A model generated the notes under the pieces. The model made no database searches. It saw nothing but the letters and a program-made list of their open reading frames with translations, and was not told the origin of the DNA. Made by a program: the position numbers and the translations under genes. DNA of 64,000 nt from Blautia hydrogenotrophica DSM 10507 (lineage in GTDB: Bacteria; Bacillota; Clostridia; Lachnospirales; Lachnospiraceae). Location of the stretch: assembly GCF_034356035.1 (NCBI RefSeq), contig NZ_CP136423.1, positions 310,001 to 374,000 on the forward strand. Direction: 5' to 3'. Each line of letters opens with the position of its first letter. Position 1 is the stretch's first letter. This document shows, one piece after another, positions 2,633 to 64,000 of the stretch.

Positions 2633-3247
2633 ATGAGAGAGAGGAAGAAAAAATTCTCGATTAACATAGCGATGATTGTACTCAACGTTGTTGTGTTTTT
2701 GATTGTGGATTTATCTGGAAATAGTGGAAATACTGAGCATATGCTTAGATGTGGTGCTGCCAATGCTGCTCTGATTGTGGAGGCAAAGGAGTACTACCGC
2801 TTATTTACATCCATGTTTTTGCACTTTGGAATGGCACATCTGGCAAATAACATGCTGGTTTTGTATGTGATTGGAGACAATCTGGAACGTGCGGTGGGAA
2901 AAGTCAAATATCTATTGATCTATCTATTCAGCGGTCTGGGAGGGAATATCCTATCCTGTTATCTGGAATACCAGGAAGGGGCGTTGAGTGTCTCAGCGGG
3001 AGCGTCTGGTGCTATATTTGGTGTGATGGGAGCAATGCTGTATGTACTTTTAGCTAATCATGGGCGTCTGGAAGATTTGACTGCCAGGCAGATAGTAATT
3101 ATGGCTGGATTTTCCCTATATTTTGGGTTTACCAGTTCTGGGGTGGACAATGCGGCGCATGTGGGCGGACTCATCTGCGGCTTTCTCGTGGCAATGCTTC
3201 TGTATCACAGAAAAAGAAATATAGTTATGAAGTCATGGGCAGAGTAA
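2633..3247 (+). CDS. Rhomboid family intramembrane serine protease
   Basis: 204 residues from ATG 2633, chosen because AGGAGG lies at 2622-2627; an upstream in-frame ATG at 2579 has no ribosome binding site. About six hydrophobic segments are visible. The catalytic serine is in GASGAIFG near residue 123 and the catalytic histidine in NAAHVGG near 176, so the dyad is intact. Rhomboids cleave transmembrane helices inside the membrane. The last 23 bases overlap the convergent histidine kinase gene. No partner gene suggests a substrate. Confidence 0.9.
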   Translation: MRERKKKFSINIAMIVLNVVVFLIVDLSGNSGNTEHMLRCGAANAALIVEAKEYYRLFTSMFLHFGMAHLANNMLVLYVIGDNLERAVGKVKYLLIYLFSGLGGNILSCYLEYQEGALSVSAGASGAIFGVMGAMLYVLLANHGRLEDLTARQIVIMAGFSLYFGFTSSGVDNAAHVGGLICGFLVAMLLYHRKRNIVMKSWAE

Positions 3248-3905
3248 TGGTAAACTTAGTTCCCTTGCCAGGTGATGACTCCACGGTTATCGTGCCGTTA
3301 TGAGCTTCTATGATCTGTTTGGTTATAGTCAGACCGAGACCAGTGCCTCCTTTTTTATGGGTGACAAAAGGCTGGAATAAAGTGGAAAGGTCTTCAGGAG
3401 GAATACCACAGCCGTTGTCTTCAATCTGAAGAATGAGTAAACTGTCTTTGGAAAATGCATAAAAATGAATGATTCCATGCATAGGTGAGGCTTCATAGGC
3501 ATTACGCAACAGGTTTAAAAGCGCCTGTCGAAATTTAGTAGGGTCAATAAGTAAAGGAGTTTCAGGTAGGTTTAGTTCTGTGACAAGATGGATAAAGAGA
3601 TAGTCTAAAGTCGGCTGGAGTGACCGAAACGTAGCTGTCAAAAACTCCTTCATATGTGTAGGCTGTAAATGTAATCTCGTGGCGTTATTGAACTCTGAGA
3701 CGTCATTGAGCAGCCCTTTGAGATAGTCCATACTGTCCATGATATCGTCCCACTCATCGAACTGTGTGATTTCTGGATGACGAATAGCCATTAAGTCTAG
3801 CGTACTTTGTATAAGTGCGACGGGATTACGGATTTCATGGGAGATTTTTGAGATTAACAGCTGAGTTTCGCTTTTTAGTTGTTCTAATTGTTCATTATTG
3901 GGCAT
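3225..3905 (-). CDS. Soluble sensor histidine kinase (HisKA + HATPase_c), no sensor domain
   Basis: 226 residues from ATG 3905; a GTG twelve bases upstream lies inside the AGGAGGTGA ribosome binding site and is rejected. The phosphoacceptor histidine is in ISHEIRNP near residue 23, followed by a dimerisation helix and an ATPase domain with N-box NLLRNAYEAS, DNGCGIP and GGTGLGLTI. There is no transmembrane or PAS domain, which resembles sporulation-type kinases of Bacillus and clostridia, and no response regulator gene is adjacent. It presumably phosphorylates a regulator encoded elsewhere; a link to sporulation is only inference. Confidence 0.88.
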   Translation of the reverse strand: MPNNEQLEQLKSETQLLISKISHEIRNPVALIQSTLDLMAIRHPEITQFDEWDDIMDSMDYLKGLLNDVSEFNNATRLHLQPTHMKEFLTATFRSLQPTLDYLFIHLVTELNLPETPLLIDPTKFRQALLNLLRNAYEASPMHGIIHFYAFSKDSLLILQIEDNGCGIPPEDLSTLFQPFVTHKKGGTGLGLTITKQIIEAHNGTITVESSPGKGTKFTITLPMTS

Positions 3906-4037: not shown

Positions 4038-4439
4038 ATGTCGGAATGTATTTTTTGTAGGATTGCGAACGGTGAAATACCATCGGCAACTCTGTATGAG
4101 GACGATGATTTTAGGGTTATCCTGGATTTAGGACCAGCGAGCAAGGGACATGCATTGATTCTTCCTAAATCTCATGCGGCCAATATATATGAGTTGCCGG
4201 ATGAATTGGCGGGGAAAGCGATGGTGTTGGCGAAGAAAATGGCAGGCAGAATGACGGAAGCTTTAGAGTGCGATGGATTTAACATCGTACAGAATAATGG
4301 GGAGGTAGCGGGTCAGACAGTTTTCCATTTTCACATGCATTTGATTCCACGCTATGAAGGAGACCAAGTAAATGTGACATGGAAACCAGGGACTTTAACA
4401 GACGAAGTAAGGGACGAAATTATTGGAAAGTTAAAGTGA
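4038..4439 (+). CDS. HIT family protein (histidine triad nucleotide hydrolase)
   Basis: 133 residues with the whole HIT fold. The N-terminal CIFCRIANGEIPS is the usual Zn-ribbon-like start of bacterial HIT proteins, and the active site HFHMHLIPR places the triad at H97, H99 and H101. The family hydrolyses nucleoside phosphoramidates and related adducts. AGGAGGT is 7 bases before the ATG. It sits 27 bases upstream of an ECF sigma factor gene and may be cotranscribed with it. Confidence 0.93.
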   Translation: MSECIFCRIANGEIPSATLYEDDDFRVILDLGPASKGHALILPKSHAANIYELPDELAGKAMVLAKKMAGRMTEALECDGFNIVQNNGEVAGQTVFHFHMHLIPRYEGDQVNVTWKPGTLTDEVRDEIIGKLK

Positions 4440-4993: not shown

Positions 4994-6079
4994 TTATTCA
5001 GACATAGTTTTTGAAGAGTCTGTTAGTTCTTCTAAGATGTTAGTGATTCGGGTGATGGAATCCGTCTTTGTGCTGGCTTTCATCGCCTGAATATAAGAAT
5101 CACGATTGGCATACAGTTCTTTTATGGAATTGTAAAGGGTCTTTTCGGTGATTTCTTCTTCTTCCAAGACCATACTGTAGCCTTGGCGTTCAAAGGAACG
5201 TGCGTTGAGTATCTGATCGCCGCGGCTCGCTTTGGCAGACAGAGGAATCAACAGATTTGGCTTGTTCAGAGCATTAATCTCGCAGATGGCGTTGGCTCCG
5301 GCCCTGGATATCACCACGTCAGAGAGTGCAAATAAGTCGGCCAGTTCTTTTCGAATATATTCGTATTGACGGTAGCCTTCCAAATCCAGGAGGGATTCAT
5401 CCAGTTTTCCACGGCCGCACAGATGAATAATCTGAAAATCTTTTAGGAGTTCTGGAAGAATTTTACGTATGTTCTCGTTGACGGAGGCAGCTCCCTGGCT
5501 TCCTCCGATAATCATCAGAATAGGTTTATCCTCGTGTAAACCGGTGAAATCCATAGCGGCCTGACGGTCTCCGCTTAGGAGTTCTTGACGAATTGGAGTT
5601 CCAGTCAGCACAGCTTTATCAGCGGGAAGCTGACTTACGGTTTCAGGGAAATTGCAGCAGATCTTTGCGGCGGAGGGGATGCAGAGTCTGTTAGCCAGGC
5701 CAGGAGTCATATCTGATTCGTGTATGACAGCAGGAATCTTTAATTTTTTAGCAGCGATTACTACTGGTACAGTGACGAATCCTCCTTTGGAGAAGACGAC
5801 GTCGGGTTTTAGCTGCTTTAAGAGTTTTCTGGCCTGGGTATACCCCTTCAGCACTTTGAATGGATCTGAGAAATTTTTTATGTCAAAATAACGCCTGAGC
5901 TTACCGGAAGAAATTCCGTAATAAGGGATATTGAAATCCTCGATCAGCTTCTTTTCGATGCCTTCATAGGAACCGATATAAGAGATCTGATAGCCCAGTT
6001 CCTTCAGGCGGGGAAGCAGGGCGATGTTTGGTGTAACATGTCCGGCTGTACCACCGCCGGTAAGTACAATATGTTTCAT
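4994..6079 (-). CDS. murG: UDP-GlcNAc:lipid I N-acetylglucosamine transferase MurG
   Basis: 361 residues, full length. The N-terminal glycine-rich loop GGGTAGHV at about 8-15 binds lipid I phosphate, and the C-terminal domain has IGGSQGAASVNENI and the acceptor-site segment ISRAGANAICEI. MurG adds GlcNAc to undecaprenyl-PP-MurNAc-pentapeptide at the inner membrane face to make lipid II. The gene stands alone, not in a division and cell wall cluster, sandwiched between two genes of opposite orientation. Ribosome binding site AGGAGG precedes the ATG. Confidence 0.95.
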   Translation of the reverse strand: MKHIVLTGGGTAGHVTPNIALLPRLKELGYQISYIGSYEGIEKKLIEDFNIPYYGISSGKLRRYFDIKNFSDPFKVLKGYTQARKLLKQLKPDVVFSKGGFVTVPVVIAAKKLKIPAVIHESDMTPGLANRLCIPSAAKICCNFPETVSQLPADKAVLTGTPIRQELLSGDRQAAMDFTGLHEDKPILMIIGGSQGAASVNENIRKILPELLKDFQIIHLCGRGKLDESLLDLEGYRQYEYIRKELADLFALSDVVISRAGANAICEINALNKPNLLIPLSAKASRGDQILNARSFERQGYSMVLEEEEITEKTLYNSIKELYANRDSYIQAMKASTKTDSITRITNILEELTDSSKTMSE

Positions 6080-6199
6080 ATGAATCCTCCTAAGATGATT
6101 GGTATGGATAAGAGTCAGGAGTAATTTTCCCAGCCTCTATTCATAATATGAACCTCAGTGGGGAAATTGTCAAGGTAAGATAGGAGAACAGGCTTTTAT

Positions 6200-16474: not shown

Positions 16475-18733
16475 ATGAAGCTATATGATAAGGGCGTCTA
16501 TTTGGTGAATGGCCTTAAGATTGTGGAGGAAGGCCAGGAGCAGTTGCCGCTTTCAAAGGAAGAGGCGTCAAAGAATACTATAGCCTATGGGATACTGAAG
16601 GATCACAATACTTCTGGCAATATGGAAAAATTGCAGATCAAATTTGACAAACTGACCTCCCACGATATTACTTTTGTGGGAATCATACAGACAGCCCGTG
16701 CGTCAGGGTTGGAGAAATTTCCAGTGCCCTATGTGTTGACGAACTGCCACAATTCTCTGTGTGCGGTGGGTGGCACCATTAATGAAGACGATCACATGTT
16801 TGGTCTGACATGTGCGAAAAAATACGGTGGTGTCTACGTTCCGCCCCATCAGGCTGTAATTCATCAGTATGCTCGGGAGATGCTGGCCGGTGGCGGAAAA
16901 ATGATTCTGGGTTCTGACAGTCATACTCGGTATGGGGCTCTTGGAACAATGGCCATGGGCGAAGGTGGCCCTGAGCTGGTGAAACAACTTCTGTCTCAGA
17001 CTTACGATATCAATATGCCAGGCGTGGTAGCAGTATACCTGAAAGGTTGTCCGAGACCGGGCGTTGGTCCCCAGGACGTGGCTTTGGCAATTATCGGAGA
17101 AGTATTTGCCAACGGCTACGTGAAAAATAAAGTCATGGAGTTTGTTGGGCCAGGCGTCGAGAATTTGAGTGCAGATTTCAGAATAGGTATTGATGTCATG
17201 ACTACGGAAACGACCTGCCTGTCCTCCATCTGGAAGACGGATGCCAAGATTGAGGAGTTCTACGCAATTCATGGCAGAAGTGAGGACTATAAGGAATTGA
17301 AGCCGGGTGATGTGGCCTACTATGATGGAATGATTGAGATTGATTTAGATGAAATTAAACCAATGATTGCTATGCCGTTCCATCCTTCGAATACCTATAC
17401 GATTGATGAGCTAAAGGCGAATCTGTTGGATATTTTGGATGATGTGGAAAAGAAAGCTCAGGTGAGCTTGGACGGAAAGATTGACTTTTCTCTGAGAGAA
17501 AAAGTAGTAGATGGCAAGCTCTATGTGGATCAGGGCATTATTGCTGGATGTGCCGGCGGTGGTTTTGAGAACATCTGTGCGGCAGCGGATATTCTCAAAG
17601 GTAGCAGCATCGGCTATGACGCATTTACTTTGAGCGTATATCCAGCAAGTACTCCAATTTATATGGAACTGGCGAAAAACGGAACGCTGGCTGTTCTTCT
17701 GGAAACCGGAGCAGTTGTTAAGACTGCATTTTGCGGTCCGTGTTTCGGAGCGGGCGATACACCGGCGAACAATGCTTTCAGCATTCGTCATACCACCAGA
17801 AACTTCCCGAATCGTGAAGGCTCAAAAATTCAAAACGGACAGATATCGTCTGTTGCTCTCATGGATGCGCGTTCTATTGCCGCTACGGCAGCAAACAAAG
17901 GTTTCCTTACATCTGCTGAAGAATATACAGGAGGATATACAAATCCTAAATATTATTTTGATAAAACGATCTACGAAAACCGTGTCTTTGACAGCAAGGG
18001 CATAGCAGACCCATCTGTGGAGATTCAGTTTGGCCCGAACATTAAAGACTGGCCGAAGATGCCGGCTTTGGCCGAGAATTTGATTCTGAAAGTCGTGTCG
18101 GAGATTCATGATCCTGTAACTACGACGGACGAGCTGATTCCGTCAGGAGAGACTTCTTCCTTCCGGTCGAATCCTCTAGGACTGGCTGAATTTACCTTGT
18201 CTAGAAAGGACCCAGCCTACGTGGGAAGAGCAAAAGAAGTGAAGGTGGCACAGGAGGCCATCGACGCCGGAGAATGTCCGGTGAAAGTACTTCCAGAGTT
18301 GACAGAGGTTCTGGATAAAATTGATGACAAATTCCCTGGAATAAAGGAAGGAGATTACGGTGTTGGTAGCACGATTTTTGCGGTGAAGCCGGGAGACGGC
18401 TCTGCCCGTGAGCAGGCTGCGTCCTGCCAGAAGGTGCTGGGCGGCTGGGCGAACATTGCCAATGAGTACGCCACAAAGCGTTACCGTTCGAATTTGATTA
18501 ACTGGGGGATGCTGCCATTCCTGATTCCGGAAGGAGAGCTGCCGTTTAAGAATGGGGATTACCTGTATGTGCCGGGAATCCGCAAAGCTGTGGAAGAGAA
18601 ATCAGAAGTAATCACCGTGTATACAGTGGGAGAGAGTGGACTTAAAGAGTTCACGGTTACATTGGGTGAGCTGACAGATGACGAGAGAGAGATCATCCTG
18701 AAGGGATGTCTGATTAACTACAATCGCAGATAG
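16475..18733 (+). CDS. Aconitase-family hydratase (YbhJ-like)
   Basis: 752 residues. The aconitase fold is visible: [32 protein letters not shown] near 147-166, the cluster ligands CAGGG near 360 and CGPCFGAG near 419-426, and a C-terminal swivel domain with [12 protein letters not shown]. It is likely a 4Fe-4S hydro-lyase. The arrangement resembles the hydratase group often called YbhJ rather than citrate-cycle AcnA or LeuCD, and the substrate is unknown. AAGGAGGA precedes the ATG. No citrate-cycle or leucine genes are adjacent. Confidence 0.85.
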
Positions 18734-18746
18734 TATAGAATGAGAT

Positions 18747-18788
18747 CAGGCCCGTTTCATTAGCATGAAATCGGGCCTGTGAATTTTT
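18747..18788 (+). terminator. Terminator of the hydratase gene
   Basis: CAGGCCCGTTTCAT and ATGAAATCGGGCCTG form a long stem with TAGC loop (18747-18779), followed by GAATTTTT. Confidence 0.85.
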
Positions 18789-18905
18789 CGGAACTATTCT
18801 TGAATTTAAATTATCTGAAAAAATATAAAAATATAGAAAATTACCAGTAATAAAAAGAATAAAAATTCTGAAAATATTTAATTATAAAAAATATCAAAAA
18901 ATGTA

Positions 18906-18934
18906 TTGACAAATAAAGGGGACAGTGATATTAT
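18906..18934 (+). promoter_or_regulatory. Consensus promoter of the large ORF-less transcription unit
   Basis: TTGACA (18906-18911), exactly 17 bases, TATTAT (18929-18934). It is one of the best promoter matches in the window, yet no gene follows for more than 1.2 kb. Confidence 0.75.
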
Positions 18935-19010
18935 ATGACCATACAAAGAAACAAGAAAGAAATTCATTCAATTCATAGTATATATAAATTACTAGAAACG
19001 AATGGTATTT

Positions 19011-19040
19011 AGAAGGAGGTATAGTCCAATGGGAACTTAA
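19011..19040 (+). other. Shine-Dalgarno sequence with a three-codon reading frame
   Basis: AGAAGGAGGT (19011-19020) is followed at proper spacing by ATG GGA ACT TAA (19029-19040). This is a near-perfect ribosome binding site leading to Met-Gly-Thr-stop inside the candidate RNA. It may recruit ribosomes or be fortuitous. Confidence 0.45.
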
Positions 19041-20023
19041 ACAGATGATCATCAATATAAGAGTGGTAGGCAGCGGTTCCTGCGAGAAAGACCGGATACA
19101 TAGAAGTAATTGAAGTCCAAGAAAAGGAAAACGTATCCAAGGTATTATAGAAGCTGTTCTTATATTGAATATTACCACAAAACTGATATAAAGGTTTTAG
19201 AATTTGTGTAAAGAAACATTTTCTAAAAAGATATAACTGCCTGACTAATAAATTATGGATTAGATGAAGGATGAGCAGAGAGCTCTCTTGGAAAAGTACA
19301 TAATGAGAATCAAGATATTAGAAAGATAATGATCGCCAGAGAACAATGGCAATTTTCAAAGGAAAATGCGATATGGTATCTCTAGATCGCTTCAGAATAA
19401 TTATCTGGAATTCTTATAAAGATGTAGTTTATAAATAACCAGTTAACCGTGATTAGGAAAAGACAGGTAAGATATCTTGAAATCCATAGGTATCCTCTGG
19501 GAGATCAGAAAAATGATAAAAATATTAATGTATAAAATAAAGCCCACATTTTATATATAAATGATTTTTAACATAGGTCATGATCTACATTAAGAGGACA
19601 TATGAATTGAAACTTTACATCAGTGAATAACTGTCAAATGGTGGAAGTTATTCATAAAAGAAGGATCATAGAAAAGTACCTTAGAATGATACAAAAGAGA
19701 TCAGGTTAAGATATTTATGAGGAAGATCCAAGTGATTTGTGATACGTGAATCACAAGTCGAAACTCTATAGAACTTTCTAAATAAATTGAATGATATGTA
19801 TCATTTCATTTTATGAGCAGGAAATAAAAAGAAAGATTAACAATAGATAAATTGAATATGGAACAAGAAAATTAAATTACTTAATTTGATTGTAACCAAA
19901 GAAGGTTGATCTATACTTATTAAATCTTATTGATATCTTATATCAGAAGAAAATAAGAGTAATCTATCATTTGTACAGAGAAAGAAAAGAAGAGGATCGA
20001 AAAATTGAATAACGAAGAGTGTT

Positions 20024-20070
20024 AAGACGACCATCATAATTAAAAAGAATTGTGATGGTCGTCTTATTGT
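20024..20070 (+). terminator. Terminator of the candidate large RNA
   Basis: Perfect 13-bp stem AAGACGACCATCA (20024-20036) / TGATGGTCGTCTT (20053-20065), extended inside by AATT/AATT, followed by ATTGTTT. Confidence 0.85.
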
Positions 20071-20169
20071 TTGCGTTGCGGCAATTTTGTGATATGATAC
20101 ATATCATTACAGAATAGCTGCCTGTATTCGGAGAGTGGCCGTTGAGAAAAGAGTAGGAGCAAGTGGAGA

Positions 20170-20835
20170 ATGTTGAGAGAAGTAATCGTGTACGAAGATG
20201 AAGATTTGATTGTCTGTCATAAGCCGGCAGGCATGGCAGTCCAGAGTGCTGGGATTGGAAGGATGGATTTGGAGAGCGCGCTGAAGAATGAGCTGGCGAT
20301 GAGAAATCCGGAAAAGCTGCCATATGTGGCGGTGATTCATCGACTGGACCAGCCGGTGGAGGGATTGGTGGTGTTCGCCAAGAATCCGAAAGCAGCGAGT
20401 GGACTAAGCAGTCAGTCAGCCAGAGGAGAGATGAAAAAATGTTATTTGGCAGTGGCGCAAGATGCCAAAGTGCCAGACAAGGAGCGGCTAGAGGACTGGC
20501 TGAGACGGGACGGGAGAAAAAATTACTCCATGGTTGTCCCAAAGAATACTTCTGGGAGTAAACGTGCGGTTTTAGAGTATAGACTTTTAAAACGGCAAAA
20601 TGGTAAAATGCTGTTGCATATTCAACTGCTAACAGGGAGGCACCATCAAATACGGGTACAGATGGCGCACAGAGGGATGCCACTTTTGGGAGATCGAAAA
20701 TACAACCCGGGAACGCAGAATGTGCATCTGGGATTGTGTGCTTGTGAGCTGAGCTTTACTCATCCTCTCAGCGGGGGAAAAATGGATTTTTGTATACAGC
20801 CAAGAGGCGAGACTTTTCAGGGCTTTTTTGAATAA
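20170..20835 (+). CDS. RluA-family RNA pseudouridine synthase
   Basis: 221 residues. The catalytic aspartate is in IHRLDQPVEGLVVFAKN near residue 60, the RluA signature, and LTGRHHQIRVQMAHRG near 156-171 is the second conserved motif. There is no N-terminal S4 domain, so it is a short single-domain RluA-type enzyme that converts specific uridines in rRNA or tRNA; the target is unknown. GTGGAG sits directly before the ATG. It begins 100 bases after the terminator of the large RNA. Confidence 0.92.
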   Translation: MLREVIVYEDEDLIVCHKPAGMAVQSAGIGRMDLESALKNELAMRNPEKLPYVAVIHRLDQPVEGLVVFAKNPKAASGLSSQSARGEMKKCYLAVAQDAKVPDKERLEDWLRRDGRKNYSMVVPKNTSGSKRAVLEYRLLKRQNGKMLLHIQLLTGRHHQIRVQMAHRGMPLLGDRKYNPGTQNVHLGLCACELSFTHPLSGGKMDFCIQPRGETFQGFFE

Positions 20836-45649: not shown

Positions 45650-45735
45650 TAACAGCTTATTCCGTGAAAACTGGACCGCACGTTTGTGGCCTTGCGCAGG
45701 AGAAATTCTCAGTCGGTTTGGAGCTGCCCAAATCC

Positions 45736-45884
45736 TTACTGTTCACTCACTTGCAGTTCGTGAGCAGTAACACGCTATGCGATGCACACAAACTGCTGTA
45801 AACAGTAGTTTGGCGCGAGTATGTCTTAGATTTTGTACAAAATGTACGAAAACAACTCGCGGGATATTGAAGCCCTGAACTGTA
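45736..45884. repeat. Family C inverted-repeat element C2
   Basis: 149 bp, second copy of C1 with the same ends TTACTGTTCA and TGAACTGTAA and about 90 per cent identity by eye. The two copies flank the cobalamin adenosyltransferase gene in the same orientation. Confidence 0.8.
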
Positions 45885-45925
45885 ACCTAAAATCCCATTG
45901 TGAAACGAAATTCGGAATAAATGCA

Positions 45926-45954
45926 TTGACAATCATCGGAAAGCATGCTATAGT
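45926..45954 (+). promoter_or_regulatory. Promoter of the lysine riboswitch-dapAB unit
   Basis: TTGACA (45926-45931), 17-base spacer, TATAGT (45949-45954). Confidence 0.75.
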
Positions 45955-45971
45955 TACAGAAATCACAGTTA

Positions 45972-46122
45972 AGAAAGATAGAGGTTGCGTTTTTTATTAG
46001 TAATCTGTTGGATGTGGCAGGCACAGAAGAAAACAGAGGAAAGGAAAAAACGCCGAAAGGATTGCCAGCCTGTTTTGGTGGTTCTTGGGCATACAGTTAA
46101 GAGCTGTGTGACTGTCATCGTA
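45972..46122 (+). ncRNA. Lysine riboswitch (L-box) aptamer
   Basis: The conserved L-box segments are in order: AGATAGAGGTTGCG, TTAGTAATCTG, AGAGGAAAGG, CGCCGAAAGGATTGCC, CTTGGGCATACAG and GTGACTGTCATCG. The aptamer binds lysine and controls the terminator that follows. It precedes dapA-dapB, as expected for lysine feedback. Confidence 0.92.
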
Positions 46123-46165
46123 AGATGGTGCGCTATCTAAAGATCAGATAATGGATTAGATTCTT

Positions 46166-46196
46166 TAGAGGCGGGCAAAAGGTCGGCCTCTTTTTA
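46166..46196 (+). terminator. Riboswitch-controlled terminator upstream of dapA
   Basis: AGAGGC (46168-46173) and GCCTCT (46187-46192) with T-run to 46196. Lysine binding should favour this hairpin and stop transcription before dapA. Confidence 0.85.
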
Positions 46197-46275
46197 TGTT
46201 ATAGGAAAGCTCTTGTCAAGCTGGTGAGTGAAAGCCGTTTCTTATAGCATAAACGTTCCGTTGCGGATGCGCACG
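46195..46275 (+). repeat. Family A structured repeat, short copy A3, in the dapA leader
   Basis: TTATGTTATAGGAAAG pairs with CTTATAGCATAA, and the tail AAACGTTCCGTTGCGGATGCGCACG is conserved. It begins in the T-run of the riboswitch terminator and therefore lies in the dapA mRNA only when the riboswitch reads through. Confidence 0.82.
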
Positions 46276-46334
46276 TTTTGTTCCTGAACGAAGAGATTCT
46301 GAGAGTACATATTATCATTAAGGAGGAGAAAATT

Positions 46335-61762: not shown

Positions 61763-61859
61763 AAACGATGTACTCCATTCTTTGTAGTTGTCCAGAAATT
61801 ATCAATGTAATTGTAGCATGTAATGAAAGGCCTGGCAAGGCGTGGAGTCCAATTAGGTG

Positions 61860-61888
61860 TTGACAAACCTACGGGACGTTGCTATTGT
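61860..61888 (+). promoter_or_regulatory. Promoter of tex
   Basis: TTGACA (61860-61865), 17-base spacer, TATTGT (61883-61888), about 58 bases before the ATG. Confidence 0.7.
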
Positions 61889-61945
61889 ACTGTAAGAGAA
61901 ATTGGCAGATTTCCGAGAGATTAAAAGAAGAGGAATGAGATTGTT

Positions 61946-64000
61946 ATGGATATTATTCAGGTAATTACCGGAGAACTAGGCGTAGAGAAATGGCAGGTGG
62001 AAGCGGCAGTTCAGCTGATTGATGAGGGAAATACGATTCCGTTTATCTCCCGGTATCGAAAAGAGGTTACAGGTTCGTTGAATGATGAGCAGCTTCGAAA
62101 GCTGGGAGAAAGACTGAGTTATCTTCGGAATCTGGAAGAGAAAAAGCAACAGGTGATTTCCAGTATTGAAGATCAGGGTAAGATGACGGATGAGCTTAAA
62201 GCACAGATTCTGGCGGCGCAGACTTTGGTAGTTGTGGAAGATCTCTATCGTCCGTATAGACCCAAAAGAAGGACGCGAGCAATTATCGCAAAGGAAAAAG
62301 GGTTGGAACCGCTGGCAAATCTCATACGTCTTCAGGCTACCAGTGTTCCTTTGGAAGAAGAGGCAAAAGCATACCTGTCAGAGGAAAAAGAAGTCCGTAC
62401 TCCTCAGGAGGCGATCGCTGGAGCTATGGACATCATAGCGGAGTCTATCTCAGATGAGGCAAATTACCGAATGCACATTAGAAATGTGACAGTTAAAAAG
62501 GGTAGTGTAGTCTCTGTGGCTAAAGATTCAGAGGCACAGTCTGTCTATGATTCTTATTATGATTACGAGGAACCGGTCTCTAAAATAGCGGGACATCGCG
62601 TTCTGGCTCTGAATCGAGGCGAGAAAGAGAAATTTCTGACAGTTAAGATCAGTGCTCCGGAGGAAGAGATTCTCCGTTATTTGAAGAAAAAAGTGATTCT
62701 GAAGGAAAATCCTATCACGACTCCCGTTTTGGAAGTTGCTGTGGAGGATGCCTATAAACGTCTGATTGCGCCAGCCATTGAGAGGGAAGTCAGAAATGAT
62801 TTGACCGAGAAGGCAGAAGAGGCGTCCATTGGAGTTTTTGGAAAGAACCTGCAACAGCTTTTGATGCAGCCTCCGATTGTGGGACGTGTCGTGTTGGGCT
62901 GGGACCCAGCTTTTCGAACGGGCTGCAAATTAGCTGTGGTGGATTCTACGGGGAAGGTGTTGGACACAACGGTAATCTACCCCACGGCACCTACCAATGA
63001 GAAAAAGATCAGGGCTGCGAAGGATAAAGTGAAGGAATGGATTGAAACTTATGGGATTTCATTGATTTCCATTGGTAACGGCACGGCTTCGAGAGAATCT
63101 GAGCAGGTAGTTGTAGAGATGCTGAAAGAGATTCCAGAGAAAAAGGTGCAGTATGTAATTACCAACGAAGCCGGAGCTTCAGTGTATTCAGCCAGTAAGC
63201 TGGCGACGGAAGAGTTTCCGAATTTTGATGTCGGACAGAGAAGCGCAGCTTCCATCGCTAGACGTCTACAGGACCCGCTGGCAGAACTGGTGAAGATTGA
63301 CCCGAAGTCCATCGGAGTGGGACAGTATCAGCATGACATGAATCAAAAGAAGTTAGGAGAGGCTTTGAACGGGGTAGTGGAAGACTGTGTGAATAAAGTC
63401 GGTGTCGATTTAAACACAGCTTCTGCTCCTCTCCTGGAATATATCTCTGGTATATCTAAGGTTATCGCGAAGAATATTGTAGCTTATCGTGAGGAGAACG
63501 GCAGCTTTAGGAACCGTAGAGAGCTGTTAAAGGTGGCAAAGTTGGGACCGAAAGCCTATGAACAGTGTGCAGGTTTTACGAGAATTCTCGGTGGGGATAA
63601 TCCGCTGGATGCCACCAGCGTACATCCGGAAAGCTATGAGGCTGCTACAAAACTTTTAGAGAAGTTGGGATATGCCTCTGAGGATATCGCGGACGGAAAA
63701 CTGACGGGGATTTCTAGACAGATCAAGAATACGAAAAAAATGGCGCAGGAACTGGGTGTCGGAGAGATTACTCTGGAAGATATCGTCAAGGAATTGGAAA
63801 AGCCGGCCAGGGACCCTCGTGATGAGATGCCGAGACCGATTCTGCGCACGGACGTTTTGGAGATGAAAGACCTGGAAGAAGGGATGGTTCTAAAAGGGAC
63901 TGTGAGAAATGTCATTGATTTTGGTGCGTTCGTGGACATCGGCGTTCACCAAGATGGTCTGGTGCATATCTCTAAAATGACAAAACGTTATATTAAGCAT
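61946..64000 (+). CDS. tex: Tex family RNA-binding transcription accessory protein, 3' end outside window
   Basis: 685 codons are visible, running off the window. The N-terminal helical region has NTIPFISRYRKEVTGSLND near 31-49 and VVEDLYRPYRPKRRTRA near 96-112. A YqgF/RuvX-like RNase H fold (VVLGWDPAFRTGCKLAVV near 315-332) and tandem helix-hairpin-helix segments (YRENGSF-like) follow. The S1 domain begins EEGMVLKGTVRNVIDFGAFV near 645. Tex binds nucleic acids and affects transcription. GAAGAGGAATGAG precedes the ATG. Confidence 0.95.
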   Translation, partial: MDIIQVITGELGVEKWQVEAAVQLIDEGNTIPFISRYRKEVTGSLNDEQLRKLGERLSYLRNLEEKKQQVISSIEDQGKMTDELKAQILAAQTLVVVEDLYRPYRPKRRTRAIIAKEKGLEPLANLIRLQATSVPLEEEAKAYLSEEKEVRTPQEAIAGAMDIIAESISDEANYRMHIRNVTVKKGSVVSVAKDSEAQSVYDSYYDYEEPVSKIAGHRVLALNRGEKEKFLTVKISAPEEEILRYLKKKVILKENPITTPVLEVAVEDAYKRLIAPAIEREVRNDLTEKAEEASIGVFGKNLQQLLMQPPIVGRVVLGWDPAFRTGCKLAVVDSTGKVLDTTVIYPTAPTNEKKIRAAKDKVKEWIETYGISLISIGNGTASRESEQVVVEMLKEIPEKKVQYVITNEAGASVYSASKLATEEFPNFDVGQRSAASIARRLQDPLAELVKIDPKSIGVGQYQHDMNQKKLGEALNGVVEDCVNKVGVDLNTASAPLLEYISGISKVIAKNIVAYREENGSFRNRRELLKVAKLGPKAYEQCAGFTRILGGDNPLDATSVHPESYEAATKLLEKLGYASEDIADGKLTGISRQIKNTKKMAQELGVGEITLEDIVKELEKPARDPRDEMPRPILRTDVLEMKDLEEGMVLKGTVRNVIDFGAFVDIGVHQDGLVHISKMTKRYIKH

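Follow-up and report, generated by a model that had tools for sequence, protein, structure and literature searches.

Large structured RNAs of Bacillota and a locus without a known family

To our knowledge, large structured RNAs described from bacteria are still few, and the function of most of them has yet to be found. RNase P and 6S RNA are housekeeping structured RNAs, and the core of RNase P is both long-range and pseudoknotted. OLE, at about 600 nt one of the large structured RNAs found in Bacillota, is described as part of a ribonucleoprotein (RNP), and its biochemical function is unsettled. As described in PMC12286853, ROOL is a large RNA with multiple pseudoknots, many GOLLD members exceed 800 nt, and both are encoded by phages or prophages, often near tRNA islands. 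The raiA-motif RNA (ModT) is structured and widespread in Bacillota (PMC11706538).

The locus considered here is a promoter-to-terminator stretch between the genes for aconitase and rlu, at positions 18906-20070 of the window, the 64-kb stretch of DNA from Blautia hydrogenotrophica DSM 10507 that was analyzed. A first-pass annotation had read this unit as a large structured RNA, either a member of the class of OLE, ROOL, and GOLLD or a new RNA. The Infernal search that it had recommended, with the Rfam 15 models for OLE, ROOL, GOLLD, and raiA among those used, gave no match at the unit at gathering score, and only the lysine riboswitch RF00168 was found in the window (45971-46143, 123.8 bits; within the ORF gap 45650-46277). 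The region 18700-20200, searched against Rfam 15 at E up to 5, returned five matches, all below gathering scores, and 20 loci from other genera, searched at E up to 0.1, returned one microRNA match, also below gathering score. BLASTN found no match among 50,697 phage records or among plasmid records, and no tRNA was found in the window. The genome has one match each to RNase P (RF00010, C1:2424839-2425189, 301.6 bits) and 6S RNA (RF00013, C1:2281498-2281675, 67.3 bits), both away from the unit.

The unit resembles OLE, ROOL, and GOLLD in size and complexity and departs from each of the described RNAs in particulars. Like OLE it is a large structured RNA of Bacillota, but its window copy is about 1.1 kb long, and the OLE model matches neither the window nor any of the 20 loci from other genera. 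It is large and pseudoknotted like ROOL and comparable in size to GOLLD, but it has no Rfam match to either, no match in phage records, and no tRNA in the window. The raiA-motif RNA is likewise structured and found in Bacillota, but it is far smaller than the unit and its Rfam model has no match there. Because no OLE, ROOL, or GOLLD model matches, the first-pass guess did better with its second option, a new RNA, than with membership in those families. What is new is the RNA family, for which no relative was found; what is already known is the descriptive group of large structured noncoding RNAs, to which several hundred nucleotides of length, no long ORF, and a covarying structure assign it. 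In a literature search judged by title and start of abstract, and run largely without subscription papers, bioRxiv, and supplements, the RNA was not described; pieces of it may be among the candidates of PMC8040213. We consider it very probable that the unit is a new structured RNA family of Lachnospiraceae that acts as RNA, and on the comparative sequence evidence below the family is real and new.

A promoter-to-terminator unit

The upstream aconitase gene (16475-18733) ends at 18733 in the ORF list, and the downstream ORF, rlu (20170-20835), is RluD-like and encodes an RNA pseudouridine synthase by Pfam. The unit between them has the following features.

18906-18934, + strand: promoter, TTGACA-N17-TATTAT with TG before the −10 box; 11 of 12 consensus bases, conserved among Blautia
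18941-20070, + strand: RNA gene of about 1.13 kb, supported by a 49-copy alignment and by BLASTN blocks that are colinear among congeners
20001-20018, + strand: conserved AAAAUUGAAUAACGAAGA segment before the terminator, from the Blautia alignment blocks
20023-20066, + strand: terminator hairpin of 19 pairs (G-T allowed) with a 6-nt loop and a T-rich tail

The start of the RNA would follow from the −10 box and its end from the terminator. Promoter-like sites as a class occur at chance level (10 found versus 9.6 ± 2.9 in shuffles), and the promoter at 18906-18934, which the first-pass annotation had placed at the same position, is credible because it is conserved: TTGACA and the −10 box stand out in a 29-sequence Blautia alignment, and 56 of 58 copies from other genera carry TTGACA-N15-18-TANNNT upstream of the 5' domain, at a distance of at most 500 bases. 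Terminator-like sites are also at chance as a class (3 found versus 2.8 ± 1.7). The terminator hairpin, noted earlier as a 13-bp stem at 20024-20065, is 97.2% paired across 49 Blautia copies with 41 double changes versus 8.8 in shuffles, and copies from other genera end in hairpins that look similar by eye.

The + strand inside the unit holds no ORF of 40 aa or more. The longest sense ORF is 33 aa, in agreement with the earlier report of no sense frame of 60 codons, and base-shuffled copies average 41.6 aa; the minus strand has one 94-aa ORF. Gaps in this genome had been described as mostly under 300 bases, and the 56 gaps between ORFs of at least 80 aa in the window indeed have a median of 144.5 bases, with 8 exceeding 300. 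A minus-strand chance ORF shortens the listed gap at the unit to 788 bases. Elsewhere in the list, a + strand frame from near 61947, which presumably encodes a Tex-type protein, runs off the window end at 64000, and the listed ORF gap 61763-62527 is therefore not a true gap.

Six non-overlapping perfect hairpins (at least 6 bp, loop of 3 to 8) were counted in the unit, where the earlier reading had given at least seven. Dinucleotide shuffles average 2.5 ± 1.4, and 6 of 200 reach six. Such an excess is by itself weak evidence, and it is the comparative evidence that is decisive.

Homologs in Blautia and across Lachnospiraceae

A BLASTN search with positions 18740-20100 against 61 genomes (the genome itself, 36 of the same genus, and 24 of the same order), the search for relatives that had been proposed, returned colinear blocks in Blautia congeners. 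Loci were fetched from 30 of the 36 congeners, chosen for their better BLASTN matches, with 6 of weak or no match left out; all 30 have the 5' block and 28 additionally have the 3' block. A conserved 19-base pattern occurs in 115 stretches, 47 of them homologs by nhmmer and 68 not, in records labeled Blautia or unclassified Lachnospiraceae, Clostridiales, or Eubacteriales; one exact pattern is also present in 7 viral contigs, none of them homologous by nhmmer. Of the 47 homologs, 25 were already in the set and 4 were cut short; the other 18, the window copy, and the 30 fetched loci make up a set of 49.

These 49 distinct copies have a median pairwise identity of 63%. Copies from Blautia agree in their promoter, their terminator, and a series of near-invariant blocks that are separated by free stretches. 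Among the 49, the longest sense ORF has a median of 45 aa and a maximum of 75 (42 in shuffles), some copies carrying sense ORFs of 40-75 aa, so that the median stays close to shuffled sequence and the homologs show no long open frame. A decayed gene or mobile element, with copies alike through recent common descent, could account for the low G+C of the unit (0.26-0.35 across 500-base segments) and for the lack of a long ORF. It would leave unaccounted for the near-invariant blocks between free stretches at 63% median identity, the compensatory changes at many pairs, and the absence of BLASTN matches in phage or plasmid records. We therefore regard decay as extremely improbable, as the first-pass annotation had also judged.

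The range of the conserved RNA was followed with three covariance models. R1 represents the 5' domain and derives from 36 copies of the genus Blautia. It finds the RNA in 59 of 64 Blautia genomes, among them 32 of the 34 of high quality, and gives no match in the other 5; of the 6 unfetched congeners, it matches G006, G025, and G027 but not G010, G017, and G019. Across the order, R1 matches 25 of 392 genomes: 7 Blautia, 17 from other genera of the family, and 1, a weak match, from another family. R2 combines 17 copies from Blautia with 17 from other genera and matches 80 of the 397 genomes sampled from the family, in 67 of 334 genera; 2 of the 80 are Blautia, and no copy was found in about 80% of the genomes sampled. 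Across the class it matches 3 of 391 genomes, all within Lachnospiraceae. R3, built from alignment A4 (described below), matches 5 of 246 genomes of the order, all Lachnospiraceae, and 1 of 129 of the phylum, which is the genome studied here. Six candidates were scored per genome in the R1 search of the order and the R2 searches of class and family, and absences are soft because the samples differ, model E-values are rough, and few candidates were scored per genome. The lone match outside the family (G162; R1, E 0.006) was not found again with R2 and was set aside, and no match outside Lachnospiraceae was upheld in the R1, R2, and R3 searches.

The RNA is single-copy in most genomes where it is found. 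A second, weak R1 match in the B. hydrogenotrophica genome (E 0.008) was taken as chance. One locus (L284, genome G1063) has two copies of the 5' domain, at 3026-3263 and 5871-6108, about 2.8 kb apart, and genome G887 has two matches on separate contigs. In Blautia massiliensis GD8 (L042), an inverted partial copy of the 3' end of the RNA and its terminator sits at 4140-4215, upstream of the element, on a contig shared with L142. Six Blautia copies (L031, L033, L035, L036, L047, and L170) have a 5' domain of 385-449 nt versus about 165-285 nt elsewhere in the genus, the extra length being an insertion in a loop; several of their carriers have poultry-like names. R1 gives two adjacent matches at these loci, perhaps a single domain interrupted by the insertion.

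Conserved helices and a pseudoknotted core

The 49 copies were aligned and folded jointly, and columns filled in fewer than half of the sequences were excluded from counts. In addition to the terminator hairpin, 13 helices were recovered, given below with the share of cells paired and the number of double changes versus the number in shuffles.

19052-19061 with 19159-19168, + strand: P1; 99.6% paired, 27 double changes versus 4.6
19070-19074 with 19153-19158, + strand: P2, beside P1; 92.0% paired, 62 versus 15.7
19063-19068 (GUGGUA) with 19173-19178 (UACCAC), + strand: pseudoknot PK1, crossing P1; 100% paired, 36 versus 8.4
19095-19099 with 19133-19137, + strand: P3; 94.7% paired, 15 versus 2.0
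19075-19083 (GGUUCCUGC) with 19817-19825 (GCAGGAAAU), + strand: long-range helix LR-A; 98.6% paired, 5 versus 1.6
19085-19090 (AGAAAG) with 19774-19779 (CUUUCU), + strand: LR-B, nested in LR-A; 98.0% paired, 3 versus 0.1
19147-19151 (AUAGA) with 19765-19769 (UCUAU), + strand: long-range helix LR-C; 94.6% paired, 8 versus 1.1
19183-19193 with 19613-19623, + strand: P4; 98.1% paired, 14 versus 1.9
19198-19207 with 19216-19225, + strand: hairpin P5, enclosing the conserved GUGUAAAGAAAC segment; 83.5% paired, 96 versus 24.6
19228-19233 with 19473-19478, + strand: P6; 94.9% paired, 14 versus 2.9
19256-19306, + strand: hairpin P7, at genus level; 90.1% paired, 54 versus 15.3
19485-19489 with 19600-19604, + strand: P8; 95.9% paired, 20 versus 2.8
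19734-19742 with 19751-19759, + strand: hairpin P9; 96.4% paired, 51 versus 12.1

In the window copy, 8 of the 9 pairs of LR-A form, and P7 has extra bases that leave its exact pairs uncertain. LR-A, LR-B, and LR-C cross P1 and P2 and make up a pseudoknotted core. They connect the 5' domain, by its loop (19075-19151), with a 3' domain at 19765-19825, some 600-750 nt away, and because these long-range helices join the two domains, the RNA folds as one object. Several near-invariant segments fall outside the supported helices. As a separate observation, CCUGAUACA occurs twice in the genus consensus of the 5' domain (19092-19193), once in P3 and once in P4, possibly a duplication or a switch; the window copy departs from it at both sites.

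Two long-range complements proposed earlier, linking the 5' end to positions near 19601 and 19785, do exist as sequence (18967-18977/19601-19611 with 11 of 11 pairs, and 18964-18976/19782-19794 with 92% of 13), but they are absent among the helices supported by comparison, where other long-range helices take their place. The first of them clashes with P8 at 19600-19604.

Strength of the covariation

When the 3' letters were shuffled and both the share paired and the double changes were scored, each of the 14 helices (P1-P9, PK1, LR-A, LR-B, LR-C, and the terminator) exceeded 300 of 300 shuffles, in a test where the helices were chosen from the same 49-copy alignment and the shuffles ignore sequence relatedness. 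Shifting the partner by 1-3 columns lowers pairing to 3-70%. An exhaustive helix search over the 49 copies returned 12 entries, corresponding to 11 helices (P4 in two pieces), with double-change scores of 7-62, versus a best score of 3 in five column shuffles; LR-A scores 5, and LR-B scores 3, only equal to the best shuffle. Both LR-A and LR-B are nearly constant within Blautia. A stricter all-pairs covariation test, run with our own scripts under two tree-based nulls, found a single pair at E < 0.05 among about 500,000. Limited to the predicted structure, which comes from the same alignment, the same test found 27 and 19 of 131 pairs, and 15 of the 20 most covarying column pairs fall within that structure.

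More divergent copies were brought in with R2, which matched 78 of 79 source loci, one of them twice, to give alignment A4 of 79 copies of the 5' domain from 78 loci. Over the modeled helices plus PK1, A4 is 93.3% paired versus 73.9 ± 0.6% when shuffled and has 499 double-change cells versus 157 ± 14, values that 0 of 500 shuffles reach; A4 was fitted to the helices of the model (PK1 excepted), and its shuffles ignore relatedness. P1 is 99.6% paired in these 79 copies and P2 87.9%, and PK1 is 98.9% paired although it is absent from the covariance model.

LR-A covaries between genera. In 56 loci from other genera, the 5' motif pairs with its own 3' sequence at −13.64 kcal/mol versus −12.51 ± 0.25 kcal/mol for swapped motifs (0 of 2,000 permutations), in a comparison where the 3' site is free to move, the permutations ignore relatedness, and the best duplex lies away from the expected 3' site in a number of loci. 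Over 77 copies (2 of 79, with less than 500 bases of 3' sequence, were left out), the copy's own motif gives a better duplex than the other motifs do on average in 57.

G-U cells number 341 over the 14 helices versus 46 A-C cells, an excess from which it follows that the + strand is the RNA. The comparison shows this strand to be under selection for about 14 helices, PK1 of the 5' domain among them. The first-pass reading of a large structured RNA is thus borne out by alignments that covary, as scored with our own scripts on the divergent copies it had called for, and by homologs without a long frame.

Gene neighborhood and mode of action

Aconitase is present in 23 and rlu in 27 of the 30 fetched Blautia loci, some contigs of which end early, and by tblastn both genes flank the RNA in the same orientation in 21 of them. 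Among 58 copies from other genera, at least 18 have aconitase as the first or second ORF upstream, and 12 have rlu directly downstream. A TPR-type protein is one of the two nearest downstream ORFs in 22; upstream neighbors vary, and the remaining copies adjoin unrelated genes. The distance from promoter to terminator in other genera is 499-1,027 nt (median 761), measured in the 45 of 58 copies where both could be placed, with the other 13 left out.

The recurrence of aconitase and rlu in Blautia, and of aconitase in other genera, is compatible with a cis element that belongs to aconitase or to the pseudouridine synthase gene, whether as a DNA element or as a long leader or trailer. We hold this to be very unlikely, since the unit has its own promoter and terminator, its place in other genera is beside a TPR-type gene or unrelated neighbors, and the excess of G-U over A-C cells favors RNA over DNA. 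The preferred reading is a separate RNA gene, which would be transcribed alone from a sigma-70-type promoter to an intrinsic terminator. Because the neighbors change between genera while the RNA and its own signals stay, the RNA should act in trans.

The TPR-type protein was considered as a partner. It has 786-1,064 aa where complete (for example, L214 5516-8584), with TPR_19 just at cut-off in one example and AAA_16 below cut-off in another. It occurs in 267 of 299 genomes of the family, including the genome of the window, and because it is nearly universal in the family it is no obligate partner and was set aside.

Candidate functions

For a trans-acting RNA with this architecture, the folded core could be a scaffold, either in an RNP, as proposed for OLE, or in an RNA-only assembly of the kind seen with ROOL and GOLLD; the contacts would then be the near-invariant segments that lie outside the helices. 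Given that the RNA is real, the case for a scaffold role is nearly evenly balanced, and we rank it above a base-pairing regulator and a catalyst.

The same exposed segments could instead bind target mRNAs, with the body of a large regulator protecting and presenting them. RNA genes encoded in trans under a promoter of their own frequently turn out to be regulators, and several near-invariant segments of this RNA are not part of any supported helix. Against this, a BLASTN comparison of the unit with both strands of the genome it comes from found nothing better than E 0.004 besides itself and a terminator arm, so that a long antisense target is lacking in that genome, short seeds being invisible to such a search, and internal pairing is the strongest signal in the RNA. 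A regulator of this kind seems rather unlikely to us.

A catalytic RNA, with a pseudoknotted core akin to those of RNase P and self-splicing introns, would explain both the distant domains joined by a long-range pseudoknotted core and the near-invariant blocks. However, no ribozyme or intron family matched in Rfam, the RNase P of the genome is elsewhere, and the neighboring genes suggest no reaction, all of which make catalysis distinctly unlikely. Returning to the scaffold, we tentatively propose that a pseudoknotted RNA specific to Lachnospiraceae may form the core of a hitherto-unknown cellular particle, either RNP or RNA-only, with the near-invariant segments as contacts.

Implications for Lachnospiraceae

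An RNA gene of about 1 kb without an Rfam family is evidently possible even in a well-sequenced genus. The carriers are common gut bacteria with named, cultured species, and because the hosts are cultured and the RNA is single-copy in most genomes where it is found, gene removal and structure work would be direct, with the pseudoknotted core offering a testable fold. If the scaffold proposal is true, the core of a cellular particle would be shared by almost every Blautia and by one in five of the sampled genomes of the family.
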